This document shows positions 36,389 to 59,848 of a stretch of DNA of 64,000 nt, in pieces. A model generated the notes under the pieces. It did no database searches and was not told the origin of the DNA. It saw only the letters and a program-made list of their open reading frames with translations. Origin of the DNA: Arthrobacter sp. OY3WO11 (lineage in GTDB: Bacteria; Actinomycetota; Actinomycetes; Actinomycetales; Micrococcaceae); contig NZ_LWLP01000001.1 of assembly GCF_001641125.1 (NCBI RefSeq), positions 2,342,715 through 2,406,714 of the forward strand, read 5' to 3'. Made by a program: the position numbers and the translations under genes. Position 1 is the first letter of the stretch, and each line of letters opens with the position of its first letter.

Positions 36389-36433
36389 TGAAAGCCCTCT
36401 AGACCATTTCCGCATTAAAAAGAGAGTTCACAC

Positions 36434-36694
36434 GTGGCGAATATCAAGTCCCAGAAGAAGCGCATCCTCACCAACGAGAAGGCACGCCTGCGCAACAACG
36501 CAGTCAAGTCCGAGCTGAAGACGGCCATCCGCGCCGTCAACACTGCCGTTGAGTCCACGGACAAGGATGCAGCTGCTGCTGCCCTGGTTGCTGCCAGCCG
36601 CAAGCTGGACAAGGCTGTTAGCAAGGGTGTTCTGCACAAGAACAACGCAGCGAACCGCAAGTCGGCGATCTCCAAGAAGGTCAACGCACTGTAA
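36434..36694 (+). CDS. rpsT: 30S ribosomal protein S20
   Basis: The 86-aa S20 protein, rich in Lys and Ala, binds 16S rRNA early in 30S assembly. The start [20 protein letters not shown] and the end [15 protein letters not shown] are family signatures. GTG 36434 is the start; ATA would be the only other in-frame option. It has its own leader and a strong terminator, so it is a single-gene unit. Confidence 0.97.
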
Positions 36695-36722
36695 GGTTTC
36701 CAGTTCGTTTGAACTGATGGTT

Positions 36723-36757
36723 GTGGCCGGTACCCTCGGGTACCGGCCACACATCTT
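36723..36757 (+). terminator. rho-independent terminator after rpsT
   Basis: Stem GTGGCCGGTACCC / GGGTACCGGCCAC with a 2-base nominal loop, followed by ACATCTTT. Confidence 0.88.
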
Positions 36758-36886: not shown

Positions 36887-37903
36887 TCAGCGGCCCTGGA
36901 CGGACATGGCAATGACCGTGACCGCGTGCTCCACCGCATATACGGGGTCGCGGGAAAGGCCTTTGACCTGCGCATCGGCTTCGGCGGTGGCCTGGATAGA
37001 CCGGACCAGCCCCTCCGGCGTCCATCGCCTGACATCCCGCTGCGCCTGCTCAACCAGCCAGGGCTGCATGCCAAGCTCCGCTGCTATCTGGGCGGAGGAT
37101 CCGGATGCGCCGGCAACCCGCGCAACTGTTCGAAGCTTTGCGGCCAGCGCGGCCACCAGCGGCACGGGATCCGCTCCTGTGGCGAGGGCATGGCGGAGCG
37201 TGGACAGGGCCAAGGGAGCATTGCCCGCCATGGCAGCATCGGCCACCTTGAACGCTGTCGCCTCGATACGGCCGCCGTAGTAGCGGTCCACAATGTCCGA
37301 AGTGACGGTGGTTCCCGCATCGGAGATGAGCTGGCTGCACGCGGCGGCAAGTTCCGAAAGGTTGGCTCCCACCGCGTTGACGAGGGCCTGGACGGCGTCC
37401 TGCTCAATACGGCGGCCGCCGGCCTTGAATTCGGCAGCCACAAAGGCCACCTTGTCTGCGTCTTTCTTGAGCGGTTGGCAGTCCACTACGGGCCAGCCCC
37501 CCTTCTTGACGGCGTCCAGGAGTTTCTTCCCCCTGGCTCCCCCGCCGTGCCGGAGGACCAGGACCGCATCGGGTTCCGTATGTTCCACATACCGGAGAGC
37601 ATCAGCGAGGAAAGCCTCGTTCATGGCCTCGACGGCCTCCACCTCGATGAGCTTGCTCTCACCGAAGAGCGAGGGGCTGACCTGCATCAGCAAAGTGCCC
37701 GGCTCATAGGCAGCCGCGTTGATGCGGCTGACCTCCACGTCGGGTGCCGCCGCCCGCACCTGGGCGCGGATTCGGTCCATGGCCCTGATGCCCAGATACT
37801 CTTCCGGTCCGCTGACCAGCACCACCGCTGCAGGTGCTACGTCCCGCCAGGTGGCCGCATTGGATGCCGGGGAACGGGTTGCTCGCTTCTGCGCAGCGGC
37901 CAT
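36887..37903 (-). CDS. holA: DNA polymerase III subunit delta
   Basis: A clamp-loader subunit of about 338 aa. The N-terminal part (AAVVLVSGPEEYLGIRAMDRI) and the middle segment QDAVQALVNAVGANLSELAAA are recognised family features. ATG 37903 has GGAAGGA eight bases upstream. The start lies 67 bases inside the 3' end of comEC, an unusually long overlap. This links holA with the competence genes in one transcript. Roughly 130 bases without a gene separate its stop from the rpsT terminator. Confidence 0.92.
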   Translation of the reverse strand: MAAAQKRATRSPASNAATWRDVAPAAVVLVSGPEEYLGIRAMDRIRAQVRAAAPDVEVSRINAAAYEPGTLLMQVSPSLFGESKLIEVEAVEAMNEAFLADALRYVEHTEPDAVLVLRHGGGARGKKLLDAVKKGGWPVVDCQPLKKDADKVAFVAAEFKAGGRRIEQDAVQALVNAVGANLSELAAACSQLISDAGTTVTSDIVDRYYGGRIEATAFKVADAAMAGNAPLALSTLRHALATGADPVPLVAALAAKLRTVARVAGASGSSAQIAAELGMQPWLVEQAQRDVRRWTPEGLVRSIQATAEADAQVKGLSRDPVYAVEHAVTVIAMSVQGR

Positions 37904-39957
37904 CGTGGGTTCCTTCCGGAAAGTTTTGTGGAGTATCCCAGCCTGCCACGTCCGGCTCCCCGCTCCAAGCCGGGGCCGGGTCGCAGCGCCATCTTCCACG
38001 TTGTCCCGGGTGCCTGCCGGAAGCCCCAGCGGCGGAGCGCCAGGACAGCCCTATCCTCCAGGGCTTCGATGAGCGAAACGAGACGCCGGTGACAGGACAT
38101 TACCAACCCGCCGGCCTGGCGCGGTCGGGCACAAGCCCAGACGGTTTCATACGTCAGAACAGACAGGAACAGCATGGTGACCAGCCCGTGAATGCCTTCC
38201 GGCCAGGGCAGCGATGCCCCCGGGAGCTGTGACGTGAACCTTGCCGTGGCGGCGACGCCGGCACTGAACGACCCGGCCACCCCGATGAGGACGGTTGCCG
38301 CCCACGGGGCAAGAACTACCAGTGGAACAGCTGCCGTCCCCAGCAATGTCACAGGTGCCACCAGGGGTGAGGCAATGAGGTTTGCCAACAGCGAGTAGGT
38401 GGAAAACTGGGGTTGCAGGAGAACGATCACCGGCCCGCACAGCAGCTGGGCTGACAGCGGGACGGCCACCGCTGCGGCCGCCCAGCGCGGAACGAACCCG
38501 GGCATCCAATCGATGATGCGCCGGCCAAGGACAATAATTCCCAGCGTGGCCAGAACGGACAGGAGAAACCCGAAGCTGGACCCCAGGCCAGGGTCCGTCA
38601 GCAGCAGGCCGATCACCGCAAGGCACAGGAAGCTGAGGCCCCGTCCGGACCGCCCGCCGGCCAGTGATACGACGGCGATGGCACCCATGAGGGCTGCCCG
38701 CAGGACGCTGGCATCCGGCCCCACGAGGAGCACAAAGAGCCAAAGGCCGGCGCCGGCCAGGGCAGCGGCGGGGAGGCGCGGCAGGCGCAGGCCCCGGCAA
38801 GCGAGCAACAGTGCCCCAAGGACCAGGCTGCAGTTGGCTCCGCTGACGGCCGTCAGGTGCGTCATGCCCACCCCCTTCATGGCAGTCTCCAGTCCCTCGT
38901 CGAGCGCCGTGGTGTCTCCCGTGACCATGCCCGGGAGCAGGCCGCGGGGATCGGGGGCGAGGAAGGAGGACGCGGCCACGAACTGTTCCCGCAGTTCTTT
39001 GGCCGATTTCTCCAGGATTGGCACGGCGGTGGCCTGGCCTGGGCCTGAGGAGGCTGTGAGAATCGCAGCTTCCTCCGTTCCCGGCACTGGCGGCCGAAGC
39101 TTTCCCGTTGCGCGGACCAGCTGGCCGGTCACCACACTGCCCCAGTCGCCGCCGCCCATAACCACAAGCTGTGCCCGGGTTCGGAGCAGGACACCGCCGG
39201 TGCTGACATCGCGGGTCCAGACAGGCACTGACCATCGTTCCGGCGTTCCTGCCTGGCCAGGGGCTGTGAGCGCCCGGGGGCCGCCGGCCACTTCGACGAC
39301 GGCCACTACTGATTTCCCTGCAGCAACAGCCTCAGCCAGGGGCCCCTCGAACCGCTGGCTGGCTGCCGCAGCCGAGTGTGCGGCCGCGGCCACCGCCAGG
39401 AAGAGTGCTGCCGCGCAGGTGGACAGGAAACTGCGCCGGGCGCGCGGGCGTTCTGTCCTTGGTCCCATGCGGCGTTGCCATGGTTGAAATCGTCGGCTGT
39501 TCCGGGCTATCAACAGCATCCCTGCAAGAGTAAAACTACAACAGAGTGCCGCCAGTGCCAGCGGCTGCAGCCAAAGCCCCGCGATGGAGGCGGCCCATAC
39601 GGCCACAGCCGGCACGGCGAGACGGACGTCAGTGCGGCGGCGGGACTCCTCGCTGCCGGCAGCTGCGTCGTTCCCTGCCTTCCCCTTCGTTTTTCCCTGC
39701 CAGGCTGAATCCCGTACCCCGTCACACTGCTCTTGTACCCGGCGCCGGAAGGTCGCGGCACCTTCGAGGCCCCGCCGCCGCCCTGGCTCCTTTCCGGGGT
39801 TCTCAGCCGCACTGTTCCCGGCGTGCGGGGCGTTGCCTTCGGCGGACACGGTGTTGCCCTCTGGTCCCGGCACAGCCGCGGCGCCCCTGACTGCAGACTC
39901 CACATACCGCTGCCAGGGACTGGTCGGGGTCTCCCTGCGGCTACCCATGAGACACAT
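37837..39957 (-). CDS. comEC: ComEC/Rec2 family competence membrane channel
   Basis: A protein of about 706 aa that forms the DNA channel for transformation. After a long polar N-terminus, two hydrophobic helices lie near 115-155. The ComEC channel domain runs from about 330 to 620, with GLLPGMVTGDTTAL, GMTHLTAVSGANCSLVLG, VLRAALMGAIAV and further membrane helices. The metallo-beta-lactamase domain of long ComEC proteins is absent. ATG 39957 starts the frame. Just upstream is the cut end of comEA, separated by the prophage. Confidence 0.88.
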   Translation of the reverse strand: MCLMGSRRETPTSPWQRYVESAVRGAAAVPGPEGNTVSAEGNAPHAGNSAAENPGKEPGRRRGLEGAATFRRRVQEQCDGVRDSAWQGKTKGKAGNDAAAGSEESRRRTDVRLAVPAVAVWAASIAGLWLQPLALAALCCSFTLAGMLLIARNSRRFQPWQRRMGPRTERPRARRSFLSTCAAALFLAVAAAAHSAAAASQRFEGPLAEAVAAGKSVVAVVEVAGGPRALTAPGQAGTPERWSVPVWTRDVSTGGVLLRTRAQLVVMGGGDWGSVVTGQLVRATGKLRPPVPGTEEAAILTASSGPGQATAVPILEKSAKELREQFVAASSFLAPDPRGLLPGMVTGDTTALDEGLETAMKGVGMTHLTAVSGANCSLVLGALLLACRGLRLPRLPAAALAGAGLWLFVLLVGPDASVLRAALMGAIAVVSLAGGRSGRGLSFLCLAVIGLLLTDPGLGSSFGFLLSVLATLGIIVLGRRIIDWMPGFVPRWAAAAVAVPLSAQLLCGPVIVLLQPQFSTYSLLANLIASPLVAPVTLLGTAAVPLVVLAPWAATVLIGVAGSFSAGVAATARFTSQLPGASLPWPEGIHGLVTMLFLSVLTYETVWACARPRQAGGLVMSCHRRLVSLIEALEDRAVLALRRWGFRQAPGTTWKMALRPGPGLERGAGRGRLGYSTKLSGRNPRWPLRRSEQPVPRHPMRPPGGT

Positions 39958-39974
39958 CCCTCATCCGGGACACC

Positions 39975-40100
39975 TCATACCGTCACCAGCGGCAGCAATG
40001 CCTCCAGCATCTTGGGCCCGACGCCGTCAACTGAGCCCAGTTCCTCGGCGCTTTTGAAGGCCCCATGCTCTTTGCGCCAGACCACTATCTGATTACGTGC
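39975..40100 (-). pseudogene. comEA: comEA 3' fragment, cut off by the prophage
   Basis: The minus strand encodes a 41-residue end of a helix-hairpin-helix DNA-binding protein, with QIVVWRKEHGAFKSAEELGS and VDGVGPKMLEALLPLV, then TGA at 39977-39975. This matches the C-terminus of ComEA, which normally sits before comEC. Reading upstream, the frame stays open for a few codons and hits TAG at 40121-40119, in the first bases of the integrase gene. No start codon serves it. The 5' part of comEA is expected at the far prophage end, beyond the window. Confidence 0.85.
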
Positions 40101-40120
40101 CCTAGCCGTACCCTTGAGCT
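40080..40120. other. candidate attachment site (attL) of the prophage
   Basis: The change from comEA coding sequence to phage sequence falls in the ~40 bases directly before the serine integrase gene, the usual attP position for large serine integrases. The exact crossover dinucleotide cannot be set without the other end or an empty comEA. Confidence 0.65.
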
Positions 40121-41512
40121 ATGAGGGTCGGCGTGTACCTGCGAATCAGCCTGGACGATGAGCGCACCGGGCTAGGGATTGAGCGCCAGCGCCATGACTC
40201 CGCCGCCCTGTGTAAGCGTCTGGGCTGGGAAGTGGCGAAAGTCTACGCCGATGAAAACCTCAGCGCCTATAAGCGTTCCGTAGACCGGCCGGCCTGGGAA
40301 GAGCTGCTGGCCGACCTCGAAGCCGGAGCCATCCAGGGTGTTGCCTGTTACGACGTTGACCGCATCGCCCGTCAGCCCAAGCAGCTGGAACGGCTCATCG
40401 ACCTGTATGAGAGCAAGCGCCGTCTGGTCTTTGCCACCGTGGCCGGAGAGATAGACCTGTCCACTGCGGACGGGAGGTTCTTGGCTCGCCTCCTCGTGAA
40501 CGTAGCCAACAAGAGCTCTGCTGATACTGCTCGCCGCGTCGCCAGGGCTCAACTCCAACGCGCCCAGCAAGGCAAGGTCGCCGGCGGTGGTCACCGCCCC
40601 TATGGATACGAGCGGGATAACGTCACCGTGGTGCCGGCGGAAGCGGCAGTCATCCAAGACGCGGCCAAGCGGGTTCTCCTGGGCGAGACGCTGATAAGTA
40701 TCTGCAAGTCCTTCGACGGCCAGTATCCGACACCAGGTAAAAGCGTGAAGTGGAGCCGGACGGTACTGCGAGCCATCCTGCTGAATCCCCGCATCGCCGG
40801 GCTGCGCTCGTACAAGGGGTCGGTCCTCATAGGTGAAGACGGCTCCCCCGTGAAAGCTATCTGGGAACCCATTGTGTCCGTCGAGACTTGGGAGCAGTTG
40901 ACTAGCCTGCTGACAGATAAGAGCCGCCAGGCGAATGGCGGCCGGGTAGACCGCAAATATCTGCTCAGTGGGCTGCTGGCCTGTCCTTGTGCCGCCAGGA
41001 TGAGCGGGGCTACGTCTAAAGGTGTGCCGGAATACCGCTGCACCCCGGACAGAGGGTGTGGCCGGACCAGGCGCAAGGCTAAAGCGCTGGATGAGTATGT
41101 CGAAAAGGAACTGCTCGATTATCTGGAGCGACAGTCGATGGAGCCGGTAGGTGACGTTTCACCTGAATCCGTACTGGACCGGGACATCGCAAACGCCGAG
41201 CAATCCCTCTCCGCTCTCATAGACGAGTGGACGGCCGGCCGTATCTCCGACGCCGTGTTCTTCGCCGCCCAGGCCCGCAAGGAAGCAGCCCTCAACGCTC
41301 TCAAGGGTGAGCGGGCACAAGAAAAACGCCGCCAGACTATGAAAGCTCCGGTCGGCGCTGGGGTGAGGCAGAAGTGGGCGGGACTTACGCTGCCTCAGAA
41401 GAGGGCGATTCTGTTTGAGGTGCTTCAAGCTGTGAAAGTTCATCCCAAACCTGTGACGGCTCCAAAACGGTTCGATCCTTACTACTACGAGTTGATTCGA
41501 CGGACAGATTGA
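40121..41512 (+). CDS. int: large serine integrase
   Basis: A 463-aa site-specific recombinase. The resolvase-type catalytic domain (about 1-145) starts RVGVYLRISLDDERTGLGIE; the nucleophile is the Ser of the RIS motif. A recombinase domain (about 155-255, with GGHRPYGYERD) follows, then a zinc ribbon (LLACPCAARMSG ... YRCTPDRGCGRTR) and a coiled-coil C-terminal part. Such enzymes integrate phage DNA between attP and attB without host factors and need a directionality factor to excise. It lies next to attL and faces away from comEA. Confidence 0.95.
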   Translation: MRVGVYLRISLDDERTGLGIERQRHDSAALCKRLGWEVAKVYADENLSAYKRSVDRPAWEELLADLEAGAIQGVACYDVDRIARQPKQLERLIDLYESKRRLVFATVAGEIDLSTADGRFLARLLVNVANKSSADTARRVARAQLQRAQQGKVAGGGHRPYGYERDNVTVVPAEAAVIQDAAKRVLLGETLISICKSFDGQYPTPGKSVKWSRTVLRAILLNPRIAGLRSYKGSVLIGEDGSPVKAIWEPIVSVETWEQLTSLLTDKSRQANGGRVDRKYLLSGLLACPCAARMSGATSKGVPEYRCTPDRGCGRTRRKAKALDEYVEKELLDYLERQSMEPVGDVSPESVLDRDIANAEQSLSALIDEWTAGRISDAVFFAAQARKEAALNALKGERAQEKRRQTMKAPVGAGVRQKWAGLTLPQKRAILFEVLQAVKVHPKPVTAPKRFDPYYYELIRRTD

Positions 41513-41593: not shown

Positions 41594-41773
41594 CTAGTCC
41601 AGACTGACGACAATCTCGTCACGATTCGCGGCGGGAAACTTCGCGGCGACGAGGGACTTTATTTCTTCGACTGCACCGGCAGAGTCCCTCTCGCTTTCGT
41701 GTACGCCGCCGCGCACGATCAGAAGGCCGCCCTCAGCTGTAGGGAACCAAGCCGACCAGTGATACTCCCTCAT
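41594..41773 (-). CDS. small phage protein of unknown function (59 aa)
   Basis: An open frame from ATG 41773 to TAG, overlapping the methyltransferase stop by four bases (ATGA), which is strong evidence for coupled translation. The peptide begins MREYHWSAWFPTAEGGLL and ends DEIVVSLD, an alternating strand/helix pattern with no membrane segment. I do not recognise a family. It is the penultimate gene of the operon running toward the integrase. Confidence 0.65.
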   Translation of the reverse strand: MREYHWSAWFPTAEGGLLIVRGGVHESERDSAGAVEEIKSLVAAKFPAANRDEIVVSLD

Positions 41774-42309
41774 GCCGCTTCAGCTTCGGGCTCGGAGTTC
41801 AGCACCAACCGAATGTCCCTGCCGTCTATCTCATTGCCCCAGCTCTCCCAGCCCGGCTGTGGCCGTCGGGCGAAGAGTTCCACATATGGGCCAGGCGAAC
41901 ACCGCTCGATGATGGCGAACTGTTCCTCCGGCTTATGGCTGTGCTCCTGAAGCGGGGCATAGAACCAGGTGCCTTGGCTTTTGAACTGGATAGGCAGGTT
42001 CCCCCGCGTACAAAAGAGCAAGTGCTCCGTTTGGTGCCGAAGGTAATTGCCAAGCCGGAAGTAGGGCTTGATCCAAGTCAGCGCGGCGCGATAGGTAAAG
42101 CCCCACGCCTCAATGACGCTCATCTGCTGGTCGAGTCCTGAGTTGGTAGCCCACATCCATAAATGCGCGTTGTCCGTGGCCAGGCGCTTCACTGGCAATG
42201 CCTTGATTGCGTCCAGTGACATCACCGGATAGTGAGCCGAAGCCCCCCACTTACCTTGTTGATGCATTGCCCAGGGCGGGTCCGCCAGTATGGTCGTATA
42301 CCTTTTCAT
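41770..42309 (-). CDS. MT-A70 family adenine methyltransferase
   Basis: A 179-aa enzyme of the MT-A70 class. The catalytic motif DPPW is at residues 10-13 (TILADPPWAMHQQGK), with the SAM-binding and target parts LWMWATNSGL and EHLLFCTRGNLP downstream. Phage members methylate adenine N6 in DNA, which can hide it from host restriction. The ATG at 42309 is preceded by AAAGGAG in the loop of a strong hairpin. No cognate restriction gene is present, so this is an orphan methyltransferase. Confidence 0.88.
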   Translation of the reverse strand: MKRYTTILADPPWAMHQQGKWGASAHYPVMSLDAIKALPVKRLATDNAHLWMWATNSGLDQQMSVIEAWGFTYRAALTWIKPYFRLGNYLRHQTEHLLFCTRGNLPIQFKSQGTWFYAPLQEHSHKPEEQFAIIERCSPGPYVELFARRPQPGWESWGNEIDGRDIRLVLNSEPEAEAA

Positions 42310-44871: not shown

Positions 44872-45882
44872 CTACTTATTTAGTTTCTTAGCTGTACGGT
44901 TGGCTACGGTATGGCCGAGAGCCAGTCCGATGGCGGCGGCAAGACCGGATGGGACGCCGAAGTCGGCGGCGTTGTCGAGGACGTAGAACAGCACGGCACC
45001 ACCGACTTGAAGCGCGATCTTGCCATTCTCGCCAGCAAAGAACTTCTCAGTAGCCGCTTTGACCGCATTTGGAGCCGCAGGGCTTGCGGGAGTTGCCGGA
45101 GTGGTAGAAGTAGGCGGCTGAACCACTGGCGTTGTTTCTGCGGGCTTTGGTGCGTTCTGGAGCGTTTCTATCTGTTTGGTCAGGCCGTCAATAGTCTTCT
45201 GCTGGCCTTGGTTCTGCGTGGTCAAGTCGGAGACCTTCTGCTGCAAGGAGCTAATCTGCAAGTCCCAGCGGTCAGTCTTCGCCGTGCGTCCCCAGATCTG
45301 GAAGTCGGTGGCCGCATCCGCCTCTTGGTCGTCAGACAGAATCTCCATCGCCTGTAGCCAAGTGCGGCCCACGGCAGCCTGCCGGAACTCCTCACGACTG
45401 GCGTTCCGGCCTCTTATCTGCACGAACAGCTTGTTCCAGCGGCCGTACTCGTTGTCCGCGTCTCTAATCACCTCTTCATCTCCTTGCTTATTTTTTGATC
45501 GCATCCAGCCTTGAACGCCGTAGTAATTGGGATGGGCCACCACTCGCGGAGCACTCCCCTTGGGATTGTTTTGCTCGAACAGGGTGTAAGTGTTGACGTC
45601 GGCCCGCACCACTACACCGGTATGCCCATAACCTCCGCCCCAGCGTCTATCCATGCACAGCACGTCTCCGGGCTGCGGGTAGTTGGTCGGGCTGTTGGCG
45701 ATTACGTCGAAGGCTTTGCGGTCGGCGTTGGCCAGTAGGTCTTTAGCGTGGCCCCAGGTGTGAGGGAGCTTTTGGCTGGCCGTCCAGACCATTGAGAGCC
45801 CGACGCACTCCCCTGTGTTCTCCGGAGTGTTCCCAACCTTCGGAACGCCGGTGTACTTGGCTATGAAAGCGTCGAGGTTCAC
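44872..45882 (-). CDS. CHAP-domain endolysin with C-terminal hydrophobic segment
   Basis: A 336-aa lysin. The CHAP amidase/endopeptidase domain occupies about 10-135, with the catalytic Cys in GECVGLSMVW and His in GYGHTGVVV. A helical stretch (about 205-240, LQISSLQQKVSDLTTQNQ) looks like a coiled coil, followed by a Pro/Thr/Ala linker. The last ~50 residues hold hydrophobic helices (ALQVGGAVLFYVL and GLAAAIGLALGHTVANR). A membrane-bound tail is unusual for a CHAP lysin and may link it to holin function. It overlaps the upstream gene by four bases. Confidence 0.88.
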   Translation of the reverse strand: MNLDAFIAKYTGVPKVGNTPENTGECVGLSMVWTASQKLPHTWGHAKDLLANADRKAFDVIANSPTNYPQPGDVLCMDRRWGGGYGHTGVVVRADVNTYTLFEQNNPKGSAPRVVAHPNYYGVQGWMRSKNKQGDEEVIRDADNEYGRWNKLFVQIRGRNASREEFRQAAVGRTWLQAMEILSDDQEADAATDFQIWGRTAKTDRWDLQISSLQQKVSDLTTQNQGQQKTIDGLTKQIETLQNAPKPAETTPVVQPPTSTTPATPASPAAPNAVKAATEKFFAGENGKIALQVGGAVLFYVLDNAADFGVPSGLAAAIGLALGHTVANRTAKKLNK

Positions 45883-48236: not shown

Positions 48237-49319
48237 TTATTGGCTCAGGCTTAGTTTGACGCTCTCGTTATCGTTCTCGTCGATGGCAAGTTCGATCTTC
48301 TCGATACGGAAGTAGCCGTTGACGTGAGACAGAATCTCGTGGGCGCTAAGGTCGACTCTGATGTAATCGCCGATGCCGTAGTCCGTGATAAATGGAGCCA
48401 CGTTGCCGTCGACCTCGATGGCCGGTATCTCGAAGGGCCAGGCCCAGGTATCGGCGTAGGCGATGGCGTGTTCGAGCAGGGTGTCTTCCTCGGAGATTGA
48501 GCTGTCAGTGATGATCTTCTCCCAGGCTTTGTAGTTTCCCAGAGAGTCCGAACGGATGTACGTCGCCTTGACTGCGGCATCACCACTGCCGGCCCCGTAG
48601 TAGGAAACGGCATTGGCGAGATTCTGGGCGTCCAAAGGGCTCGACAGGCGCTTGATGTTGCCGGGGTAGGTGAAGACGATGTCGTCGCGGCGGGAGCCCA
48701 TAGTCTCGTAGGTGTTGAAGACCTTGTCGGCGGTGAACTCAAAGTCGAACGTGCCGCTTTCCAGCTTGGTGAGATTTTGGATGGCCTCTTTGACGACCAC
48801 CTGTGGTGAGTAATTTCGGATACGGGATACACTCAGCGCCGGTAGAGAACCGATGGTGACACCGAAGTCATACGGACCGCCTACACCCCAGCCATGGTTC
48901 TGGACAAAGGTGATGAGGTCAGCCGCAATCTGGTTGCCGTAGCCGGTGAACTCCTCCTCGTTGAGCGCACCCATCAGTACGTGCCGATGAGCAAACAGAT
49001 TCAGGAAGCCTTGCGCCCGTACTTCTACGTCCTGCTCCGTCGGAGATAAGCGCACTTCCCGCAGCATGACGATACCGCCGCAAAGATAGGTGCTCCCCCT
49101 CCGCACCCGCACTTCCGTCCAGCCTGGTTGAAGTAGGGATTGAGGCGTGGTGTTCATAAGCCGGGCGTAGCGCTCCAGCTCGGCAAGGTCTATCTGCCAG
49201 ATGATGTCTTCGGCTTCATTGCGCTGCAGCGTGAGGCGGCGATTCTTGGCCCGTCCAGCGAAGTCAGCTATCAGTTCGCCATCAGGCGTCCAGAGTTCGA
49301 AGTGGTACTTACTCGCCAT
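48237..49319 (-). CDS. Gp37-like siphovirus tail protein (baseplate hub type)
   Basis: A 360-aa protein of the ReqiPepy6 Gp37-like family found in actinobacterial siphoviruses. Seen features: KYHFELWTPDGELIADFAGR at the start, EAEDIIWQIDLAELERYARL, and VEVRAQGFLNLFAHRHVLMG near 120. It probably forms the baseplate hub that links the tail tube to the receptor-binding part. ATG 49319 overlaps the upstream stop (TAATG); a longer frame from 49427 is not supported. Confidence 0.8.
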   Translation of the reverse strand: MASKYHFELWTPDGELIADFAGRAKNRRLTLQRNEAEDIIWQIDLAELERYARLMNTTPQSLLQPGWTEVRVRRGSTYLCGGIVMLREVRLSPTEQDVEVRAQGFLNLFAHRHVLMGALNEEEFTGYGNQIAADLITFVQNHGWGVGGPYDFGVTIGSLPALSVSRIRNYSPQVVVKEAIQNLTKLESGTFDFEFTADKVFNTYETMGSRRDDIVFTYPGNIKRLSSPLDAQNLANAVSYYGAGSGDAAVKATYIRSDSLGNYKAWEKIITDSSISEEDTLLEHAIAYADTWAWPFEIPAIEVDGNVAPFITDYGIGDYIRVDLSAHEILSHVNGYFRIEKIELAIDENDNESVKLSLSQ

Positions 49320-50176
49320 TACAGCCCGATATAGGCGGGCCGTGCCGCCACCTCCAAGGTGCCCGTGTCCGAAGTCGAGGAGGAGGAAAAGCTGAAGGTC
49401 GTGATGCCGGAGGGCAGACTGAACCATTCGGAGTCGACCGACTTGGCGTTCAGCACGCTCATGCCGTTGTACAGGACAGTCTTATCCGCCATGTCGATGA
49501 CGATTACGTCCGACGCGCTGGTAGCGGAGAGAGTCAGCTGGAAGGTCTTTCCGATTTCGATGGCGTAGATGGTCGGGTTCGTGACCACGCCGCGGATGGT
49601 GAGAACGGGCCAGGAGTCGGCGTTGCCGTAGTTGTTGACGCTGGCCGTGCCGCCAGTGCTGGAGTCGTAGATAGCCGGGTAGGTGATGGGATAAGTGACG
49701 CCGCCAGGAACCCGGATGCCGAACTGTCCGCTGGTTAGGCTCTCGATGCCGTAGAGCAAGGGGTCCGGGACAACCATGACGATCAGGAAGCGGCCGAAAC
49801 CAATGTTGTCCGTGGTCTGTTTGAAGCTCTTGATGTAGGCGTCCAAGGTGAACTGAGCCCCGGATAAGGCCGTGAAGGTGACCGTTGCCGGTTCGGGATA
49901 GCCGGTACTGGAATCCCGTCTTACTCGACAAGCCGATGCCAGATTGCGCCGGGCCTGCTCATAGGTCACGGCGTCGGCTCCGCTCACAATGCCAGACAGT
50001 GAGATGGTGCGATTACCGTAGTAGGCCGCGCTGACGCGCCCGCCGTCTTCGCCCGGCTTCTCGTAAGCGTTCAGTCGCACGTCCGGAGCATCGAAACCTT
50101 CGATTTGTTGCAGCGTGTAGCTGGTGACACCGGAGCCGAGTATTTGGAGCGAGTCGATAGTGAGGGAGCTCAGCAT
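49319..50176 (-). CDS. distal tail (Dit-like) protein
   Basis: A protein of about 285 aa from ATG 50176, coupled to the tape measure stop (TAATG). It carries the Dit/phage tail family layout: an N-terminal ring-forming domain (LSSLTIDSLQILGSGVTSYT) and a C-terminal beta domain after VPDPLLYGIESLTSG. Dit forms the ring between tail tube and tip. Gene order (tape measure, Dit, hub) supports this. Confidence 0.82.
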   Translation of the reverse strand: MLSSLTIDSLQILGSGVTSYTLQQIEGFDAPDVRLNAYEKPGEDGGRVSAAYYGNRTISLSGIVSGADAVTYEQARRNLASACRVRRDSSTGYPEPATVTFTALSGAQFTLDAYIKSFKQTTDNIGFGRFLIVMVVPDPLLYGIESLTSGQFGIRVPGGVTYPITYPAIYDSSTGGTASVNNYGNADSWPVLTIRGVVTNPTIYAIEIGKTFQLTLSATSASDVIVIDMADKTVLYNGMSVLNAKSVDSEWFSLPSGITTFSFSSSSTSDTGTLEVAARPAYIGL

Positions 50177-51660
50177 TAGGAGACCCCCGCCAAGCGCCAC
50201 CCCAGCTCCCGGTTGGCTGCGTCAAAGTCAAAGGGCGAGTAAATGTTGTTCGTCTGGTGGATGGTCACGCCACCGCCACCCACCATGCCGCGGCTCTCTT
50301 CGTTGGTATAGACGTTGGCCCCTTTGGGCAAGCTGACCAGCTCCGGGCCGCGCTCGCCGACGACGGCCAGACCGCCGGAGAAGTTACGGACGCCCGTGGC
50401 GAAGCCAGGTATCTTGAGCGCTTTACCGGCACTGCTTATCCCGGACTGAACATTCTTGAGTCCGCCAAAGGCGTTCATCACCTGATTTATGAGTCCAAGG
50501 ATCGTGTTTAGCGGGCCGGCGAACGGTCCCAATAGGAGCATCCCTATTTGAGCCCAGTTGGACCGGATGAAGTTCGGAACCGAAGCAATGGCTCCCTTTA
50601 CCCGGTCCATGTTGAGTGCGACTGCCACGGCCAAGCCGATAACGGCAGCTATGGCAATTCCTACTGCTGCGGCGGTGGCGGCGGCAGCTGTACCGAAGGC
50701 GATGATGACCACGCCGACAATGGCGGCTACGGAGCCCAGTATGGCGATCATAGCCAGGAAGACACCACCTGCTATCAGGATGGTCCCCGTCAGTCGCTGA
50801 TTCTCCTGCACCCATTTGGCTAGCGAAACAATTATCGGAGTGACGGCCTGTAGTAGCGGCAGGAGGGCAGTCTGCAGAGCTGTGCCGATTTGCTGCTTGA
50901 GCACCTCCGTCTGGGCCGCTGCTTGAGCCTGTGAACCAGCAAACTGCTTGGTCAGCCGGTCGGCATCACCGAGCTGGGCAGTAGTTTCTTTTACGATGCC
51001 GCCGAAAATGGCTTGTCGCACACCAGCGTCCGAGCTGGCCTTCATCAAGTCCTGGGCGGAGTACCCGGCCTCTTCCAGCATCATGCTGAGGTTCTTCGTG
51101 ACGCCGGCGTTGTCGACCAGAATCGAGTTGCCGTTCTTGATACCTTCAGTGGCGCTTGCAACAGCCTGGCCGAAGCCCAGAGCTGCCTGCCGATTGAAGG
51201 CAGCTGAATCCTTGAAGCGTTCCATTAGAGTGATGGCTTCCGGGAGGTTGAAGCCGGCCGCCAGAAGGTTCTTCAGACCGGTGGCAGATTCAGCGACGGT
51301 CATCAAGCCGTCTTTGGCTAAGTTCTGAGCTGCCCGTTTAGCGGCGTCAGCATCGTGACCGAAGGCCCTGGCTACCGAGGAAAGACCGGTCAGGCCACTC
51401 TGCAGGCGGTTGGCAGAATCAATGGACTGGCCCATGAATCCAGCCAGTTGATGCACAGCAGCACCGGCACCAGCAGCGACGGCGGCGAGGGGCAACACAT
51501 TGTTCTTGAAGCCTTCGATGGCAGTGGAAGACCTACGACTTTGAGAACTGACACCATCAAACTCAGAGCCGGTTCGATTCAGCTCGCCTCTCACCTTGTT
51601 TAGCGTGGCGGAAGCTTCGTCAATCGCTCGAACGACTATTTGTAATTCATTGGCCGCCAC
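50176..51660 (-). CDS. tail tape measure protein
   Basis: A 494-aa tape measure protein. It starts with a helical stretch (AANELQIVVRAIDEASATLN) and has hydrophobic segments at about 255-335. The final part is Gly-rich (RGMVGGGGVTIHQTNN). It sets tail length; at roughly 1.5 angstrom per residue the tail would be only about 75 nm, so this is a short-tailed siphovirus. The GTG start at 51660 lies inside the frameshifted chaperone reading frame. Confidence 0.88.
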   Translation of the reverse strand: MAANELQIVVRAIDEASATLNKVRGELNRTGSEFDGVSSQSRRSSTAIEGFKNNVLPLAAVAAGAGAAVHQLAGFMGQSIDSANRLQSGLTGLSSVARAFGHDADAAKRAAQNLAKDGLMTVAESATGLKNLLAAGFNLPEAITLMERFKDSAAFNRQAALGFGQAVASATEGIKNGNSILVDNAGVTKNLSMMLEEAGYSAQDLMKASSDAGVRQAIFGGIVKETTAQLGDADRLTKQFAGSQAQAAAQTEVLKQQIGTALQTALLPLLQAVTPIIVSLAKWVQENQRLTGTILIAGGVFLAMIAILGSVAAIVGVVIIAFGTAAAATAAAVGIAIAAVIGLAVAVALNMDRVKGAIASVPNFIRSNWAQIGMLLLGPFAGPLNTILGLINQVMNAFGGLKNVQSGISSAGKALKIPGFATGVRNFSGGLAVVGERGPELVSLPKGANVYTNEESRGMVGGGGVTIHQTNNIYSPFDFDAANRELGWRLAGVS

Positions 51661-52215
51661 GCATGGTGTTCCTGCTTAATTCTCGCTGCTGTTCAAGCTC
51701 TTGATGCTTTTGAACTTTAGCTTCTGCACTAATCTTAACCGCTATAACATCCAAAAACCATTGGGGCTGCTCGTAGTATTCCCACAGTGTCCATCCATAT
51801 TCCTTGCACACCAGGGCAGCGAAAAAGGCTGGATGCAGTTCTCCCGCGTGACCCTTCAGCAGTGATTTGTAATCGCTCTCTAGTTTGTGGAGGTCTTTAC
51901 CGGTAAAGGGTTTTGGATCTTATCGACCTCCGCCTTGATGAAGTCGTAGTCAGCTTCGGGCATATCGAGAATCGCGTCAAGCACGCCCTCAGACTTGCCA
52001 TCGACGGACAGGACAATCAATTCCAGCGCCTTGTTCGTGGCCGCCAGGGCGGCGGTGCCGTCGAACTTAGTGGCCTGCTCGACCGACACTTCGGTAACGG
52101 AGGACAGCATGACGGACTGGACGGCCTGCTTGATGCGGCCGGTGATGTAGCCGCGCAGCACGACCTTCTTGTGCAGAACAGGCGTTTCAACTTCGATGGA
52201 TTCTTGGAGTTCCAT
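51647..52215 (-). CDS. tail assembly chaperone, long form made by -1 frameshift
   Basis: Two overlapping frames. The short form (111 aa, 52215-51880) starts ELQESIEVETPVLHKKVVLR and stops at TAG. A second frame continues from the slip site to TGA at 51649-51647 and encodes a conserved end, LHPAFFAALVCKEYGWTLWE, then YYEQPQWFLDVI. Slipping at CCCTTTA gives a 189-aa fusion (104 residues plus 85). This is the G/G-T pattern of siphovirus chaperones, which coat the tape measure during tail assembly. The fusion end overlaps the tape measure start by 14 bases. Confidence 0.88.
51904..51910 (-). promoter_or_regulatory. -1 ribosomal frameshift site (C CCU UUA)
   Basis: The minus-strand heptamer CCCTTTA (51910-51904) is a canonical X XXY YYZ slippery site, correctly phased in the chaperone frame (AAC CCT TTA). 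The -1 frame has a stop just upstream (TAA in GAT AAG), so entry must happen at or after this point. Confidence 0.88.
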
Positions 52216-53201
52216 TAGTAGCTGGCTACCGCGTTAGTCAGAACCGCGTTCCACGAATAGCCGTCAGTCAGGCTGAAGAGGGCTTGGAAGCCGACGGTCT
52301 GCTCAACGATGTTGGCCAAGTCTTGGTCCGTACCCCAGTCGCTGAAGTTCACCTTCGGGAAAGTGAAGACCAGCTTCGGATTGGCAGCGGTGCCGATGGT
52401 CACGTCGCTATTCAAGAGCGTGATGCTCATAGCCTGGTTGGTGTTGGCGAAGAAAGCGTCGTGGTGAGTAGCTGCGTCAAACAGGGCAGTGAAGTCGCCG
52501 TCAATCACCAGCTCCTTGCTGTGGATTTTGCTCGGATCGTTGGAGCCCAGGCCGTACCAGCCTTCGGCGTTCTTGCTGACTTTGAACTTCACGTCCTTCA
52601 AGACGATGGGTGTGGCACCGGCCAGGCCGGCGACAGTCGAGGCCAGCTTCACGGAGATGTGTTTGGCCTTGAACTCGTTTTCAGCCACGTAGGCGACGGT
52701 GTTGCCAGCGGAAGTCGTGGGCTTCTTCGACAGGAACTCAGCGGCCCAAGTCGCCCACTGTCCAACGGCGGCTTCTAGTTCGAAGCTGTCCATCACACCG
52801 TAGGCGTAGCGCTCGTCTCGTAGGGCGTCCTTCAGGGCGAGCGTCATCGTCAGCTGCTCGGAAACTTGAGCCTGACTATAGGTGTGGTCCTTGATGGTGG
52901 CGTCAGAATCGGCATTGTCCGTGGTGACAGGAGCAGCGCCGAAGGCGGAGGCCAGGATGAGGCCGATGGACTTGTCGCAGACCTTGCCCTTAATCATCCC
53001 CTGCCCGTAGTCGCGCATAATCTCGGCGGAGTTGTACTTGTCCAGCACGTTGAGGGCCGATTCGTTCATCTCCTTGTCAGACTTCTGCTTGAAGTCTGCT
53101 TCTAACTGCTTCAGCCAGTAGGTAGGAGCAACAGCGGTGCCGGCAGTGCTTTCCTTTCCGATGCCGTAGGCAACCTTTCGACCAATATGACTGTTACTCA
53201 T
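52215..53201 (-). CDS. major tail tube protein
   Basis: A 328-aa major tail protein. The start SNSHIGRKVAYGIGKESTAG followed by TAVAPTYWLKQLEADFKQ is the pattern of phage tail tube proteins. The C-terminal third contains a beta-rich part (LLNSDVTIGTAANPKLVFTF). Its stop overlaps the chaperone start (TAATG). Its position before the chaperone and tape measure is standard. Confidence 0.85.
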   Translation of the reverse strand: MSNSHIGRKVAYGIGKESTAGTAVAPTYWLKQLEADFKQKSDKEMNESALNVLDKYNSAEIMRDYGQGMIKGKVCDKSIGLILASAFGAAPVTTDNADSDATIKDHTYSQAQVSEQLTMTLALKDALRDERYAYGVMDSFELEAAVGQWATWAAEFLSKKPTTSAGNTVAYVAENEFKAKHISVKLASTVAGLAGATPIVLKDVKFKVSKNAEGWYGLGSNDPSKIHSKELVIDGDFTALFDAATHHDAFFANTNQAMSITLLNSDVTIGTAANPKLVFTFPKVNFSDWGTDQDLANIVEQTVGFQALFSLTDGYSWNAVLTNAVASY

Positions 53202-53838: not shown

Positions 53839-54291
53839 CTACTTTCCTCCGATGATGTTTTTGATTGCTTGGTCGAAGGCGTCGTTTATGCCGGCACGGG
53901 AACTATTGGCCGCCCGGTCCATGAACTGATTGGGGCGCTGCCCTCTGCTGCTGCGGGCGAAGACTGCCCCGCCTCTCCCCCTCCAGGCCATCACCCGCCC
54001 CGGGCGAATCATGGCGCGTTTGGGGCCATAAAGCCCGGTGCCTTCATGCACGTAGAGGGCGTACTTCACGCCTGGCCGGATTACCACTGCATTAGCGAGA
54101 CGGGTTATGCCGATAGAGCTGCGGAGCTGTCCCTTGTCTATCGGCGCTTCCTGCCGGGCGTTGCGCTGAATCAGGATGGCGGAGTATTCCAAGGCCTTGG
54201 CGACCTGGGCGCGAGTGCGCTGGGGAGCCTTTGCGAACAACGCTTCAAGCTCGGAGAAACCCTTGACTTCAATCTCTATGGTGCGGGCCAT
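53839..54291 (-). CDS. HK97 gp10-like neck/tail component
   Basis: A 150-aa protein of the HK97 gp10 type. It has an N-terminal helix (IEVKGFSELEALFAKAPQRT), then VAKALEYSAILIQRNARQEA and the strand pair PIDKGQLRSSIGITR and VIRPGVKYALYVHEGTG. The last motif (Y..YVHEGTG) is typical. It joins the head completion and tail parts. It ends directly before the terminator-like gene. Confidence 0.8.
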   Translation of the reverse strand: MARTIEIEVKGFSELEALFAKAPQRTRAQVAKALEYSAILIQRNARQEAPIDKGQLRSSIGITRLANAVVIRPGVKYALYVHEGTGLYGPKRAMIRPGRVMAWRGRGGAVFARSSRGQRPNQFMDRAANSSRAGINDAFDQAIKNIIGGK

Positions 54292-54293
54292 GC

Positions 54294-54611
54294 CTAGACC
54301 CTCTTGTCGTCAGCCAACGTGAGCTTCAGATGAGGGAAGTTGCCCACCAGGTTCTTGCGGACGGCTTTGACGAAGTAGATGATGCTGTCGCCGTCGGTCA
54401 GCCGGTCCCCCTCGCGCACGTCAGCGGTGGAATCCACAAAGCAGCGGTAAGTCTTGGCATAGGCACTGCCGGCCTGCTCGCCAGGCACGTCTTCGAGCGG
54501 CCGGATGAAGCAAGGAATGGCTGACCCGACAGTCTGATACGTCTTCTTGATGCCGGTCGTGGCCTTTGGCCGTGACACGGTGACGCTCTGGGTGAGCAAA
54601 GGCGTGAACAC
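54294..54611 (-). CDS. head closure (stopper) protein
   Basis: A 105-aa protein, mainly beta, starting FTPLLTQSVTVSRPKATTG. Size and place between the connector and gp10-like genes match the head-closure (gp16/FII-like) family. It overlaps the upstream connector gene by one base. Confidence 0.72.
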   Translation of the reverse strand: MFTPLLTQSVTVSRPKATTGIKKTYQTVGSAIPCFIRPLEDVPGEQAGSAYAKTYRCFVDSTADVREGDRLTDGDSIIYFVKAVRKNLVGNFPHLKLTLADDKRV

Positions 54612-55138
54612 TAGACGTTCCTCACCCGGTAAGCGGCTAACACCCCCAAGTCATCTGGTGCGATTTCTTGGATGCGGTGCTCGATGGAGTAGTCGTCCAG
54701 TGATTCCTTGGACACGGTGTTGTCCCGGAACAGCTGCGTAGCCAACCGGACGGCGACCATTTCGATGTCTTTGGGTACGCCGTTGCTGTCGTACTTGTAG
54801 GTGACTTTGACGAAGGTGTAATTCAACGGCACTATCAGGCGGCCACTGGCTGTCCACTCGTAATCGTCTGCGCCCAGGACTTCCCAGTCGTCGGATCGCA
54901 CGTCGCGCACTTCGACGGAGGTGATTTCAGTGATGCCGGTATGTTTCAGCCAAAGCCGTGAGCCCTGGCCCTCGTGCAGCTCATCAGTGACTGTCTGGGC
55001 TCCGGTAGCGAAGTGGCGGCCGGTGTAGGTGTCAATCCAGGCACTCGCCCGCGCCAGCAGGTCAGTCAGGTAAGTATCCTGAGCTGAATCAGTGATGCTG
55101 AGGGCGCTCTTTAGTTGGTCGGTGGTTGCATATGACAT
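54611..55138 (-). CDS. head-tail connector (adaptor) protein
   Basis: A 175-aa protein of the gp6/gp15 adaptor family. It has helices DQLKSALSITDSAQDTYLTD and LLARASAWIDTYTGRHF, then a beta middle and a final helical region. It makes the ring below the portal. It follows the capsid gene and the 95-aa gene. Confidence 0.8.
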   Translation of the reverse strand: MSYATTDQLKSALSITDSAQDTYLTDLLARASAWIDTYTGRHFATGAQTVTDELHEGQGSRLWLKHTGITEITSVEVRDVRSDDWEVLGADDYEWTASGRLIVPLNYTFVKVTYKYDSNGVPKDIEMVAVRLATQLFRDNTVSKESLDDYSIEHRIQEIAPDDLGVLAAYRVRNV

Positions 55139-55160
55139 TTGGTTCTTGGTTCCTCACCGC

Positions 55161-55180
55161 TGCCCTCGCTATGAAGGGCA
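55161..55180. other. hairpin between connector and 95-aa gene
   Basis: TGCCCT and AGGGCA, 8 bases apart, with GTTCTT/AAGAAC arms further out. No T-run. It could alter mRNA stability between the capsid and connector genes. Confidence 0.35.
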
Positions 55181-55192
55181 GGGCGCGAAGAA

Positions 55193-55480
55193 CTAAGCGT
55201 TCTTTTCGGCGGGCTTCAGTCCTTCGCCTTTGACGGCTTCGACTTTGGCATCTTCGGTCTTGCCGCGCTGGGCTACGAGAGCAGCAGCGTGGTCTTTGTT
55301 CTTCTCGTCGAACTTCTCGACGCGGACTTCGAGGGTCTTGCCCTCGGCGTCCTTGCGATTCTTGTCCAACAGAGCGGCGGCCACATACTTTGGAACGGTG
55401 AACACGTCGCCCTTGAAGTAGGGAGTGACGGTGTCGGTCGCGATCAAAGTAACGGGCGTTTGGTCTTTCTTATCTGCCAT
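55193..55480 (-). CDS. small head protein of unknown function (95 aa)
   Basis: A 95-aa, charged protein (ADKKDQTPVTLIATDTVTPY, then FKGDVFTVPKYVAAALLDKN). It has an SH3-like front part and a Lys/Glu-rich end. Place next to the capsid gene suggests a head accessory. Not recognised as a family. Confidence 0.6.
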   Translation of the reverse strand: MADKKDQTPVTLIATDTVTPYFKGDVFTVPKYVAAALLDKNRKDAEGKTLEVRVEKFDEKNKDHAAALVAQRGKTEDAKVEAVKGEGLKPAEKNA

Positions 55481-55506
55481 GGGTAGATATCCTCAGATTA
55501 GTTTTC

Positions 55507-56574
55507 TTATACGACGGCGGTCAGCTTGGCGAAGGCGTCGACGATGGTCAGCTGACCATCCAAGCGCTCAGTGACCTTCACAGCGGCGCGGTGCTTCTCG
55601 AAGCTGGTGCCTTCCTGAGTGGAGACTTCAGCCGAGACTTCCTGGCGGTCGCCGATGTAGTAGTAGCTCAGGTCGCCGAACCAGATTTCAGACTCATCCG
55701 TACCAGCGCCGAGGTTGGTCGGGATGTCGTTCTGAGTGATGACGGGGCGGCCGAAGAGCGTACCTACGCGGTTGTCACCAGCGTTGAAGCTCTCCTCGAA
55801 CAGGAACTTGCCGTCGGTCGAGCGCAGGCTGCGGACGAGCTTCAGGATGGCGTCGTTCATGATGAAGGTGGAATCGGCGCGGTACTGCTCAGGCAGGGTG
55901 TGAATCAGGTTCACCAAGTCAGTCGAGGCGAGGTTTGCACCGGCCTGAGCGACAGTCTGAGTAATGGTGTAAGCGCGGAGACCCTTGGGCTGGCCCGTAC
56001 CGGAACCGGTCATGTAAGCAGTGTCCTCAGTGCGGCCGAGCTTGTTGGCGAACTTGCGGATGACCAGCTCAGCGATGCCCTCGTTGATAGCAGCGTCAGC
56101 CAAGAGCTGGCGGCTCATGCGGGACAGTCCGGCGAGCAGGTTCACGTTAAGGATTACCTGGCCGAAGGTCGGGTCGCTCTGAGTGATCGTGGCGAGTTCA
56201 GTCGTCCAGTTAACGGAGACATCGTTGCCTTCGGTCTGGATTTCCATCTTGTCGCTGCCCATCGGGATGATGGTGGCGTAGTGCTTCAGATAGCCGACTT
56301 TGTACTTCTTCTCGACCAGGGTGTTGTAGAACTCGGTCGGAACCAGGTAACCACCATTGGCGTCGGTCGAAATTGATAGGTCTTTGGTGAAAGCGGAGTC
56401 CATCAGGTTGCCGAGGAATTTCACGGAAGCCACAACGTCAGCATTGGGGGTCTTACCGGCAGCGATCTTCTCGGTTACTTCTTTGCGCTCACCAGCGGGC
56501 AGCTCTTTCATGAGCTTGGCGACTTCTTCAGCGACAGTCTCGCTTACTATTGATTTGAGTTCTTCAGGTTTCAT
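55507..56574 (-). CDS. HK97-family major capsid protein
   Basis: A 355-aa protein of the HK97 fold. An N-terminal helical part (about 1-65) likely serves as a scaffold. The rest includes NGGYLVPTEFYNTLVEKKYK, the E-loop region, SGLSRMSRQLLADAAINEG written in parts (LLAGLSRMSRQLLADA) and TAYMTGSGTGQPKGLRAYT. The mature form may be cut by the protease encoded upstream. No crosslinking Lys/Asn pair was checked. Confidence 0.92.
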   Translation of the reverse strand: MKPEELKSIVSETVAEEVAKLMKELPAGERKEVTEKIAAGKTPNADVVASVKFLGNLMDSAFTKDLSISTDANGGYLVPTEFYNTLVEKKYKVGYLKHYATIIPMGSDKMEIQTEGNDVSVNWTTELATITQSDPTFGQVILNVNLLAGLSRMSRQLLADAAINEGIAELVIRKFANKLGRTEDTAYMTGSGTGQPKGLRAYTITQTVAQAGANLASTDLVNLIHTLPEQYRADSTFIMNDAILKLVRSLRSTDGKFLFEESFNAGDNRVGTLFGRPVITQNDIPTNLGAGTDESEIWFGDLSYYYIGDRQEVSAEVSTQEGTSFEKHRAAVKVTERLDGQLTIVDAFAKLTAVV

Positions 56575-56596
56575 AACCTCTTTCTCTAGTGATTAA

Positions 56597-57580
56597 TTAG
56601 TCGATCTTGCCGAGGTTGTAATCAATCTCGGATTTAACGCCAGCGCGCACAGCTTCGCGGACTTCATCGGCGGTCAAGCTCTTGATTTCCGGTTCAGCTT
56701 CGCCCTCGGCCTTGTCTTCGGTTTCGCCTTCAACTTCGGTGCCATCAGATGCCTCTAGCTCTGACTTATCCTCAGTTACTTCAGTCACTTCCTCAGCTTC
56801 CGCTTCGGTTTGGTCGTTAACAATTTCAGCAGGCTCTTCGGCTTTAGCCGTGAGCAATTCGGTAAGTGTCTTTACTTGGGTTGTGAGCTCTTTAAGAGCA
56901 TTGGCAGTTTCCATGTCTTCATTATCAGAATTTTCGTCTGATTCCGTCAATGCTTTTATTAGCTGCCGCGCTTGGCTGGTCATTGTTTTGCGCTCATTCT
57001 CGGAGAATGTGCCGTCTTTGAAGCCCAGGACTAATGCTTCCGGGTTAGCAGGAACGGTTACGCAAGAAACTTCCAGTAGTTCGCACTTCGTGAAGGTGTA
57101 GCCGGTCATCCAGTCGCCGTCGTACTCCAACGGGATGAAGCCCACGCTGAAGGCGCGGAGATAGCCGCCCTTGTAGAGCTTGAAGATGGTGTCGGCCCAC
57201 TCGTACTCGTCCTTGGTGGCGAACTGAGCCTTGAAGGTCAGGTTGCCGTCCTTGATGCCGACTTCCAACGCCTTAGCAACTGGAGGCATGGAGTAGTTGT
57301 GGCCCCACGGCACTACCGGGTTGCCCAGGAAGCGCTTGAGCTCCCAGCCGGCCTGCTCAATTACGTCGCCGTAGGAATCCTTGGCCTTGGTGGAACCGAT
57401 GAACTCGATAGTGCGGTCGTCTTCATTCAGACTCTTTATCTGGAACGGAATGACCGTGCGGATGGTCTCTGGCTTCTTACCCTCAAGCTCTTCTAGCTTC
57501 TGCTCAATTCGTACCGATTTGCCGAATACGGAAGCGGTGGCTTGCTCCCTATCCTGCTCTATGCCGGCGACTGTCTTCAT
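56597..57580 (-). CDS. prohead protease with acidic C-terminal scaffold-like region
   Basis: A 327-aa protein. The protease domain (HK97 U35 type, about 35-190) has the catalytic His in VVPWGHNYSMPP and Ser in YLRAFSVGFIPL. After about 215 the protein is very acidic (many Glu, Thr and Val), for example EEVTEVTEDKSELEASDG. This tail may act as the scaffold, since no separate scaffold gene is present. The last ~20 residues regain a helix (LTADEVREAVRAGVKSEIDY). Confidence 0.88.
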   Translation of the reverse strand: MKTVAGIEQDREQATASVFGKSVRIEQKLEELEGKKPETIRTVIPFQIKSLNEDDRTIEFIGSTKAKDSYGDVIEQAGWELKRFLGNPVVPWGHNYSMPPVAKALEVGIKDGNLTFKAQFATKDEYEWADTIFKLYKGGYLRAFSVGFIPLEYDGDWMTGYTFTKCELLEVSCVTVPANPEALVLGFKDGTFSENERKTMTSQARQLIKALTESDENSDNEDMETANALKELTTQVKTLTELLTAKAEEPAEIVNDQTEAEAEEVTEVTEDKSELEASDGTEVEGETEDKAEGEAEPEIKSLTADEVREAVRAGVKSEIDYNLGKID

Positions 57581-57660
57581 TTATGCTTTATCCTTGTTAC
57601 CTTTAGCGCAATCATAATTCATTCACGTCTTTTAGCACAGGCAATAAGGTGCAGCGGCAG

Positions 57661-59792: not shown

Positions 59793-59848
59793 ATTTCCTA
59801 GTGTTTAGTTATTTCTATACTAATGTTAATTCTAATGTTTTGATACGG

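Follow-up and report, generated by a model that had tools for sequence, protein, structure and literature searches.

The window analysed here (64,000 nt; C1:2342715–2406714 of the 4.5-Mb genome of Arthrobacter sp. OY3WO11) contains the junction between competence genes and a prophage. On its minus strand, comEC is an open frame of 706 residues (37837–39957; PF03772) whose ATG, at 39957, lies 17 nt past the end of comEA. A 370-residue frame on the same strand (36887–37999), which we take to be holA, an essential gene, overlaps comEC and comes after it. The window holds only a 3′ remnant of comEA (39975–40080, minus strand), consisting of 34 codons plus a stop, with the crossover core included: the frame that ends at 39975 reads ...IVVWRKEHGAFKSAEELGSVDGVGPKMLEALLPLVTV up to its stop codon, continues the empty site of relatives and matches positions 28–64 of the PF12836 (HHH_3) profile, i.e. 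the second helix-hairpin-helix. The sequence-only reading had thus correctly recognized the C-terminal helix-hairpin-helix of ComEA in the minus-strand frame upstream of comEC. The interval it assigned to the feature, 39975–40121, needs trimming: the comEA remnant within it stands, whereas the host part ends at 40080 and the last 41 bp are phage DNA. The attL core, CCAG (CTGG on the gene strand), occupies 40077–40080, and from there the phage attP arm (40081–40120) runs to the start of the integrase gene, a similar arm being found at the same place in two further genomes, designated G126 and G152. An in-frame stop of the remnant's frame, at 40119–40121, shares the first base of the integrase.

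The large serine integrase (40121–41512, plus strand; 463 residues) has Resolvase, Recombinase and zinc-ribbon domains above cut-off (PF00239, PF07508 and PF13408) and matches phrog_95, integrase; it is a putative recombinase. The prophage, 39,489 bp in all, takes up the remainder of the window (40077–64000) and continues to C1:2422283 (locus L007). On the minus strand, it carries genes for an MT-A70 family methyltransferase (41770–42309; PF05063) and a CHAP-domain protein, probably the endolysin (44872–45882; PF05257), followed by tail genes assigned through PHROGs (48237–53201: minor tail, 48237–49427; tape measure, 50176–51660; tail protein, 52215–53201) and, at 53839–61520, by Pfam and PHROGs matches to a connector, capsid, head protease, head morphogenesis protein, portal, and large and small terminases. 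This set of packaging, head and tail genes identifies the element as a tailed-phage prophage, and the frames of these genes are open. Its G+C content is 56.6%, against 65.7% in the 16-kb host flank. PADLOC, run on eight prophage proteins, gave a single weak match (PD-T4-6, E 0.0019). Near the far end (L007:10731–13690; C1 about 2417330–2420289), a gene resembling a type IV secretion coupling protein (PF02534, PF10412) lies beside a Replication-relaxation gene (PF13814); the stretch is mostly common to the prophages of OY3WO11, G126 and G152, and in phage records the coupling protein has only distant matches (14 records, best 24%).

The two halves of comEA and the attachment site

The 5′ part of comEA is present at the far prophage end, where a split gene would place it: C1:2422283–2422369 and the sequence upstream encode a 284-residue frame with an SLBB domain (PF10531) and PF12836 positions 4–32, outside the window and 39,489 bp from the 3′ remnant. 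A hydrophobic stretch in the N-terminal part of ComEA is visible by eye, without a predictor, in the translation. Joined in silico, the flanks yield a 310-residue ComEA with 83% identity to that of genome G130. In all three lysogens (OY3WO11, G126 and G152), such joining restores comEA exactly, both pieces are open, and the N-terminal piece meets a stop seven codons past the crossover. A search of the genome with the HHH_3 profile (five matches) found no second complete ComEA that could speak against a split gene: the sole full-length match is an 859-residue frame at C1:1137387, presumably Tex-like, and two further matches are partial and below cut-off.

Comparison of attL, attR and attB defines the crossover site, as attL and attR have only CTGG in common; this is the short core that comparison with unlysogenised relatives, which carry the empty site, was expected to yield. 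The resulting predicted attB reads ATCGTGGA-CTGG-CGCAAAGAG, encodes IVDWRKE within the helix-hairpin-helix codons of comEA, and is identical over 44 bases around the core to the empty site at L039 (genome G135); GACTGG is kept in 33 of 36 comEA loci. Moreover, attP, as assembled from the prophage's two arms, contains a dyad for which the best symmetry is centred on the TG (CA on the opposite strand) of CTGG, with 13 of 20 positions symmetrical in OY3WO11, 12 of 20 in G126 and 10 of 20 in G152. The two gene halves, the empty sites, the 4-bp core with its attP dyad and the two additional lysogens bear out the proposal that a prophage lies inside comEA: a serine-integrase prophage is inserted within the gene, and chance is excluded because the split falls at one and the same base in three genomes. 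The distance from comEC to the start of comEA is now 39.5 kb. The prophage separates comEC and the 370-residue frame from any promoter before comEA, so that a further promoter would have to exist.

Related prophages and the state of comEA in the genus

Two close relatives of the integrase occur in the 198 genomes examined from the genus, in G126 (with an in-frame stop) and G152, and the next is at 40%; no further close relative was found in 206 genomes searched, or in 395 family genomes drawn, where the matches included G126 and not G152. Both relatives belong to prophages (45.8 and 40.3 kb, respectively) that are integrated in comEA at the same base as in OY3WO11. A 9.5-kb stretch at 86% identity is common to the OY3WO11 and G152 elements, little of it occurring in G126, and the integrase end and, close to the opposite end, a stretch of 2.9 kb recur in each of the three; the prophages of G126 and G152, which represent two other species, are mosaics with sister integrases. 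Integrase identities are 90% for OY3WO11–G126, 82% for OY3WO11–G152 and 81% for G126–G152, whereas the corresponding values for ComEA are 62, 62 and 79%, and because the two sets disagree, the three insertions are evidently independent. The G126 integrase (C1:1974143–1975531; L009) has its in-frame stop mid-gene, whereas those of OY3WO11 and G152 are open; if the stop is real, the G126 prophage may be locked in comEA, perhaps unable to excise by itself.

Exact-pattern searches of IMG/VR gave no match to either the attR junction or attP, and the integrase search there retrieved one contig of 37,443 bp (L107; IMGVR_UViG_2690315906_000001), 100% identical from residue 5 and apparently the same prophage; because this contig begins within the integrase, the att site falls outside it. 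Two scans of genome contigs for integrase relatives found, respectively, none and four Streptomyces integrases at 36–39%. The latter were rejected as relatives at the comEA site: their flanks lack comEA and include a single 38-residue comEC-like match (E 0.58). In phage records, even the best-placed relatives are remote, at 35% for the integrase and 30% for the large terminase, and a search of these records with ComEA gave 23 records, 13 of 15 among the matches listed being without annotation.

The helix-hairpin-helix region of comEA is uninterrupted in 189 of the 198 genomes, a count that refers to this region, few of the frames having been read at full length and some being short upstream (G029, 186 residues; G052, 188; G192, 204). 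In the remaining nine, comEA is prophage-split in three, apparently frameshifted in two (G131 and G193) and without a match in four (G026, G055, G067 and G118), these last having no ComEA match except distant helix-hairpin-helix proteins, and three of the four being less than 85% complete. Pairwise omega of comEA is 0.35 and 0.38 between OY3WO11 and the two relatives nearest to it, against a maximum of 0.34 and a median of 0.24 in 60 non-lysogen pairs, and 0.21 and 0.24 for G126 and G152 with their nearest relatives. Branch estimates are 0.30–0.38 for OY3WO11 against 0.31–0.52 in its two nearest relatives; one estimate for G126, 0.64 where its sister has 0.11, comes from a very short branch. 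The substitution patterns are thus mixed, and the split gene is not clearly under the same constraint as before. Both pieces are open in all three lysogens, and we therefore read the insertions as young relative to the species.

Targets of related serine integrases

Similarity matches to the OY3WO11 integrase (E ≤ 1e-20) comprise 82 integrases in 70 of the 198 genomes, a non-random set with many close kin, for which we place no reliance on binomial values that take no account of kinship. Fifty-two of these 82 elements lie at a truncated competence gene facing the integrase, namely tadA (18), comM (16), tadC (10), comEA (3), comEC (3) and dprA (2), the tadA and tadC targets belonging to the same single tad cluster. 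The rule applied required an alignment to end no more than 450 bp from the integrase and to lack 12 or more residues on the side facing it. It yielded 51, and review by hand added L124, where a tadC end lies beside the integrase, and reassigned L037 and L154 from dprA to comM, the last comM residues being beside the integrase; the least secure of the 52 are L159, whose site differs from the rest, and L167, with 42 bits and a partial integrase. The competence queries were taken from the OY3WO11 genome, except for ComEA, which came from G135. By comparison, none of the 82 elements is inserted in any of 32 control frames, extracted by a simple script from positions 1–36900 of the window. These frames total 33.0 kb and the competence genes 9.1 kb; one of the frames, if not more, is on the wrong strand (36415–36750, opposite an rpsT-like frame), and several may be essential, lowering the expected number of hits. 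The other 30 elements have no recognised competence target; the flanks of ten such elements hold, among others, an M50 peptidase, TrkA, a solute-binding protein, a methyltransferase and SSB. In this genus, the targets of related serine integrases are thus often steps of the same DNA-uptake pathway.

Sixteen genomes have an integrase in tadA of the targeted cluster (cluster 3), and in each of the 15 searched, all but G037, the gene is in pieces. Thirteen of these genomes have the pieces on a single contig, separated by 8.6 to 53 kb; in G186 and G090, they are on separate contigs. Gaps near 9–10 kb in several cases mean that some of these elements fall short of a full phage. In G137 (C32:39362–62675), a single tadA gene is in three pieces, and in G023 (L121), two integrases are found with tadA pieces side by side. 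The finding that other tad clusters are untouched rests on tadA, tadB and tadC of cluster 1, tadB and tadC of cluster 2 (the tadA query for which was a wrong frame of 148 residues), tadA of cluster 4 and matches to paralogs; the latter are mostly unbroken, one being short (G186:C25) and one having an internal stop (G036:C17). Up to five further integrases, outside the 52, lie at an SSB gene (L027, L127 and L144 by search, L137 by eye and L140 by grouping only); in the first three of these, the C-terminal half of the gene adjoins the integrase, and it would be a further DNA-processing target.

A query-independent sample of the family, obtained with PF07508 in 80 genomes from 32 genera (57 matches in 34 genomes), was scored with a looser rule (−450 to 700 bp, L233 being reassigned from dprA to comM): nine of the 57 truncate a competence gene (tadA 5, tadC 1, comM 1, dprA 1 and the comEA of OY3WO11 itself; eight of 56 without the latter), and none of the 57 is in a control frame. 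The tendency therefore extends beyond the kin of the OY3WO11 integrase, and is weaker there. In a FastTree phylogeny with long branches (126 rows, including 44 of 56 family rows, of 380–620 residues), most integrases with a common site cluster with one another. The clusters that use different sites in different competence genes are scattered over the tree, with rows lacking a competence target between them. There are at least nine such sites: one each in comEA, comEC, dprA and tadC, three in comM and at least two in tadA. Sixty-seven of the rows have no competence target, among them those nearest the comEA integrases, and 15 changes are needed between having such a target and having none; these figures and neighbours speak against one simple specialised lineage. 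The tree is compatible with both one old specialisation and repeated retargeting.

Probable consequences for DNA uptake and comparison with known systems

We propose that a temperate tailed phage, through its large serine integrase, recombined its attP with attB in the helix-hairpin-helix codons of comEA. The N-terminal piece retains the SLBB domain and only half of the DNA-binding fold, and the C-terminal piece of 34 codons has no anchor; additionally, the insertion has moved the start of comEA 39.5 kb away from comEC. As a result, transformation would probably be closed to the lysogen as long as the prophage stayed in place; its excision would rebuild comEA exactly, and the phage would benefit by escaping deletion by imported homologous DNA. 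Micrococcus luteus we take to be of the same family as OY3WO11. In this species, deletion of comEC abolishes transformation, as does that of all the tad genes tested but one, according to the accessible part of the study (PMC4322843). Because ComEA is halved, comEC is displaced and these deletions abolish transformation, its loss in the OY3WO11 lysogen is likely. For the genus itself, no report of natural transformation was found in the literature searched; DprA, ComM and several tad clusters are likewise encoded in the OY3WO11 genome, and a second gene of the DprA family is found on a smaller contig (G000:C2:139731–140366).

An insertion that disables DNA uptake for as long as the phage is integrated is, with high confidence, the best explanation of the locus, although truncated ComEA could retain some function, an internal promoter could drive comEC, the in-frame stop makes self-excision doubtful in G126, and the pairwise omega values of the OY3WO11 comEA exceed that of the highest non-lysogen pair. 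These last two observations would also suit a fixed remnant and a comEA pseudogene in a lineage already without transformation; we think this very improbable, given the open integrases of OY3WO11 and G152, the open head, tail and packaging genes of the former, its intact comM, dprA and cluster-3 tad frames, and the open comEA pieces in all three lysogens. Timed excision, whereby host or phage rebuilds comEA when it is wanted, has a described model in the active lysogeny of Listeria comK, and exact in silico restoration in each of the three lysogens would permit it; such restoration is, however, common to any site-specific integration, and a switch of this kind seems unlikely here.

A more serious competitor, which we consider possible yet rather doubtful, is that the integrase simply uses a conserved sequence in a gene that the cell can do without, so that competence would be lost as a side effect from which the phage gains nothing. 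Cells in culture do not need their competence genes, the sequence around attB varies little, as the retention of GACTGG illustrates, and some genomes carry double insertions (tadA and comM in G161; tadA and tadC in G063) of which the second adds no further block. On the other hand, the control frames, several of them perhaps essential, were hit in neither the genus nor the family set, the nine or more sites fall in six genes of one pathway and are used by distant integrase groups, and only one tad locus was hit among those tested, the others being probably dispensable too. As a possible benefit to the phage, escape from deletion by imported DNA would fit this convergence on one pathway, and the hypothesis in print is mainly escape from deletion by transformation (PMC12637031); the sequence-only reading had suggested a block on competitor DNA, which may be a benefit as well. 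We regard as evenly balanced the broader proposal that a branch of integrases in the family is specialised on the whole transformation pathway (pilus motor tadA, pilus platform tadC, receptor comEA, channel comEC, dprA, comM and perhaps an ssb paralog), that its elements resist deletion by imported DNA, and that their choice of target reveals the DNA-uptake pilus among the tad clusters (C1:2924500–2932500). The target pattern gives a testable guess for that pilus in the genus, which belongs to a group, the actinobacteria, whose competence is described as little understood (PMC8467076).

Prophages in competence genes, and the enrichment of such genes among serine-integrase targets, are already known. 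In the literature searched, whose coverage stops short of most subscription journals and supplements, we found no report of a prophage in comEA or a tad gene. The comparison with the Listeria phage in comK, drawn when the sequence was first read, holds in kind, both being prophages in a competence gene, but the Listeria target is a competence regulator in another phylum, whereas here it is the DNA receptor (PMC4774983, as available in part). The same partly available source, Croucher et al. 2016, describes prophages and other elements in comK, comYC, comFA and comM and a cassette in comEC (PMC4774983): as here, one transformation step is inactivated at a site conserved across species, but the hosts are Firmicutes and a Gammaproteobacterium, and in the available text, comEA is named only as a receptor and tad genes are not among the terms. 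Pneumococcal cases, including ssbB, appear in the accessible text of a further report together with an experimental study of the arms race (PMC12637031). The Streptococcus suis phage phi-SsuHCJ31_comEC (MN270268) is named after the comEA–comEC pair, but its record annotates comEA as a CDS of 678 bp, with comEC as the gene beside the element. Transformation of M. luteus, which involves comEA/EC and tad Flp pili, is the pathway that these insertions would hit, and the accessible part of that study mentions no prophage (PMC4322843). Finally, Durrant et al. 2022 report, in the text available to us, that DNA competence genes are strongly enriched among the targets of large serine recombinases and that a Mg-chelatase gene, ComM-like on our reading, is the target of 12.4% of predicted site-specific integrases; that text, supplement aside, names no comEA, tad or dprA target (PMC10083194). 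With three independent insertions at one base of comEA, the DNA receptor joins the competence genes that serve as phage attachment sites, and the general statistical statement in print becomes a concrete map of the steps hit in one genus.
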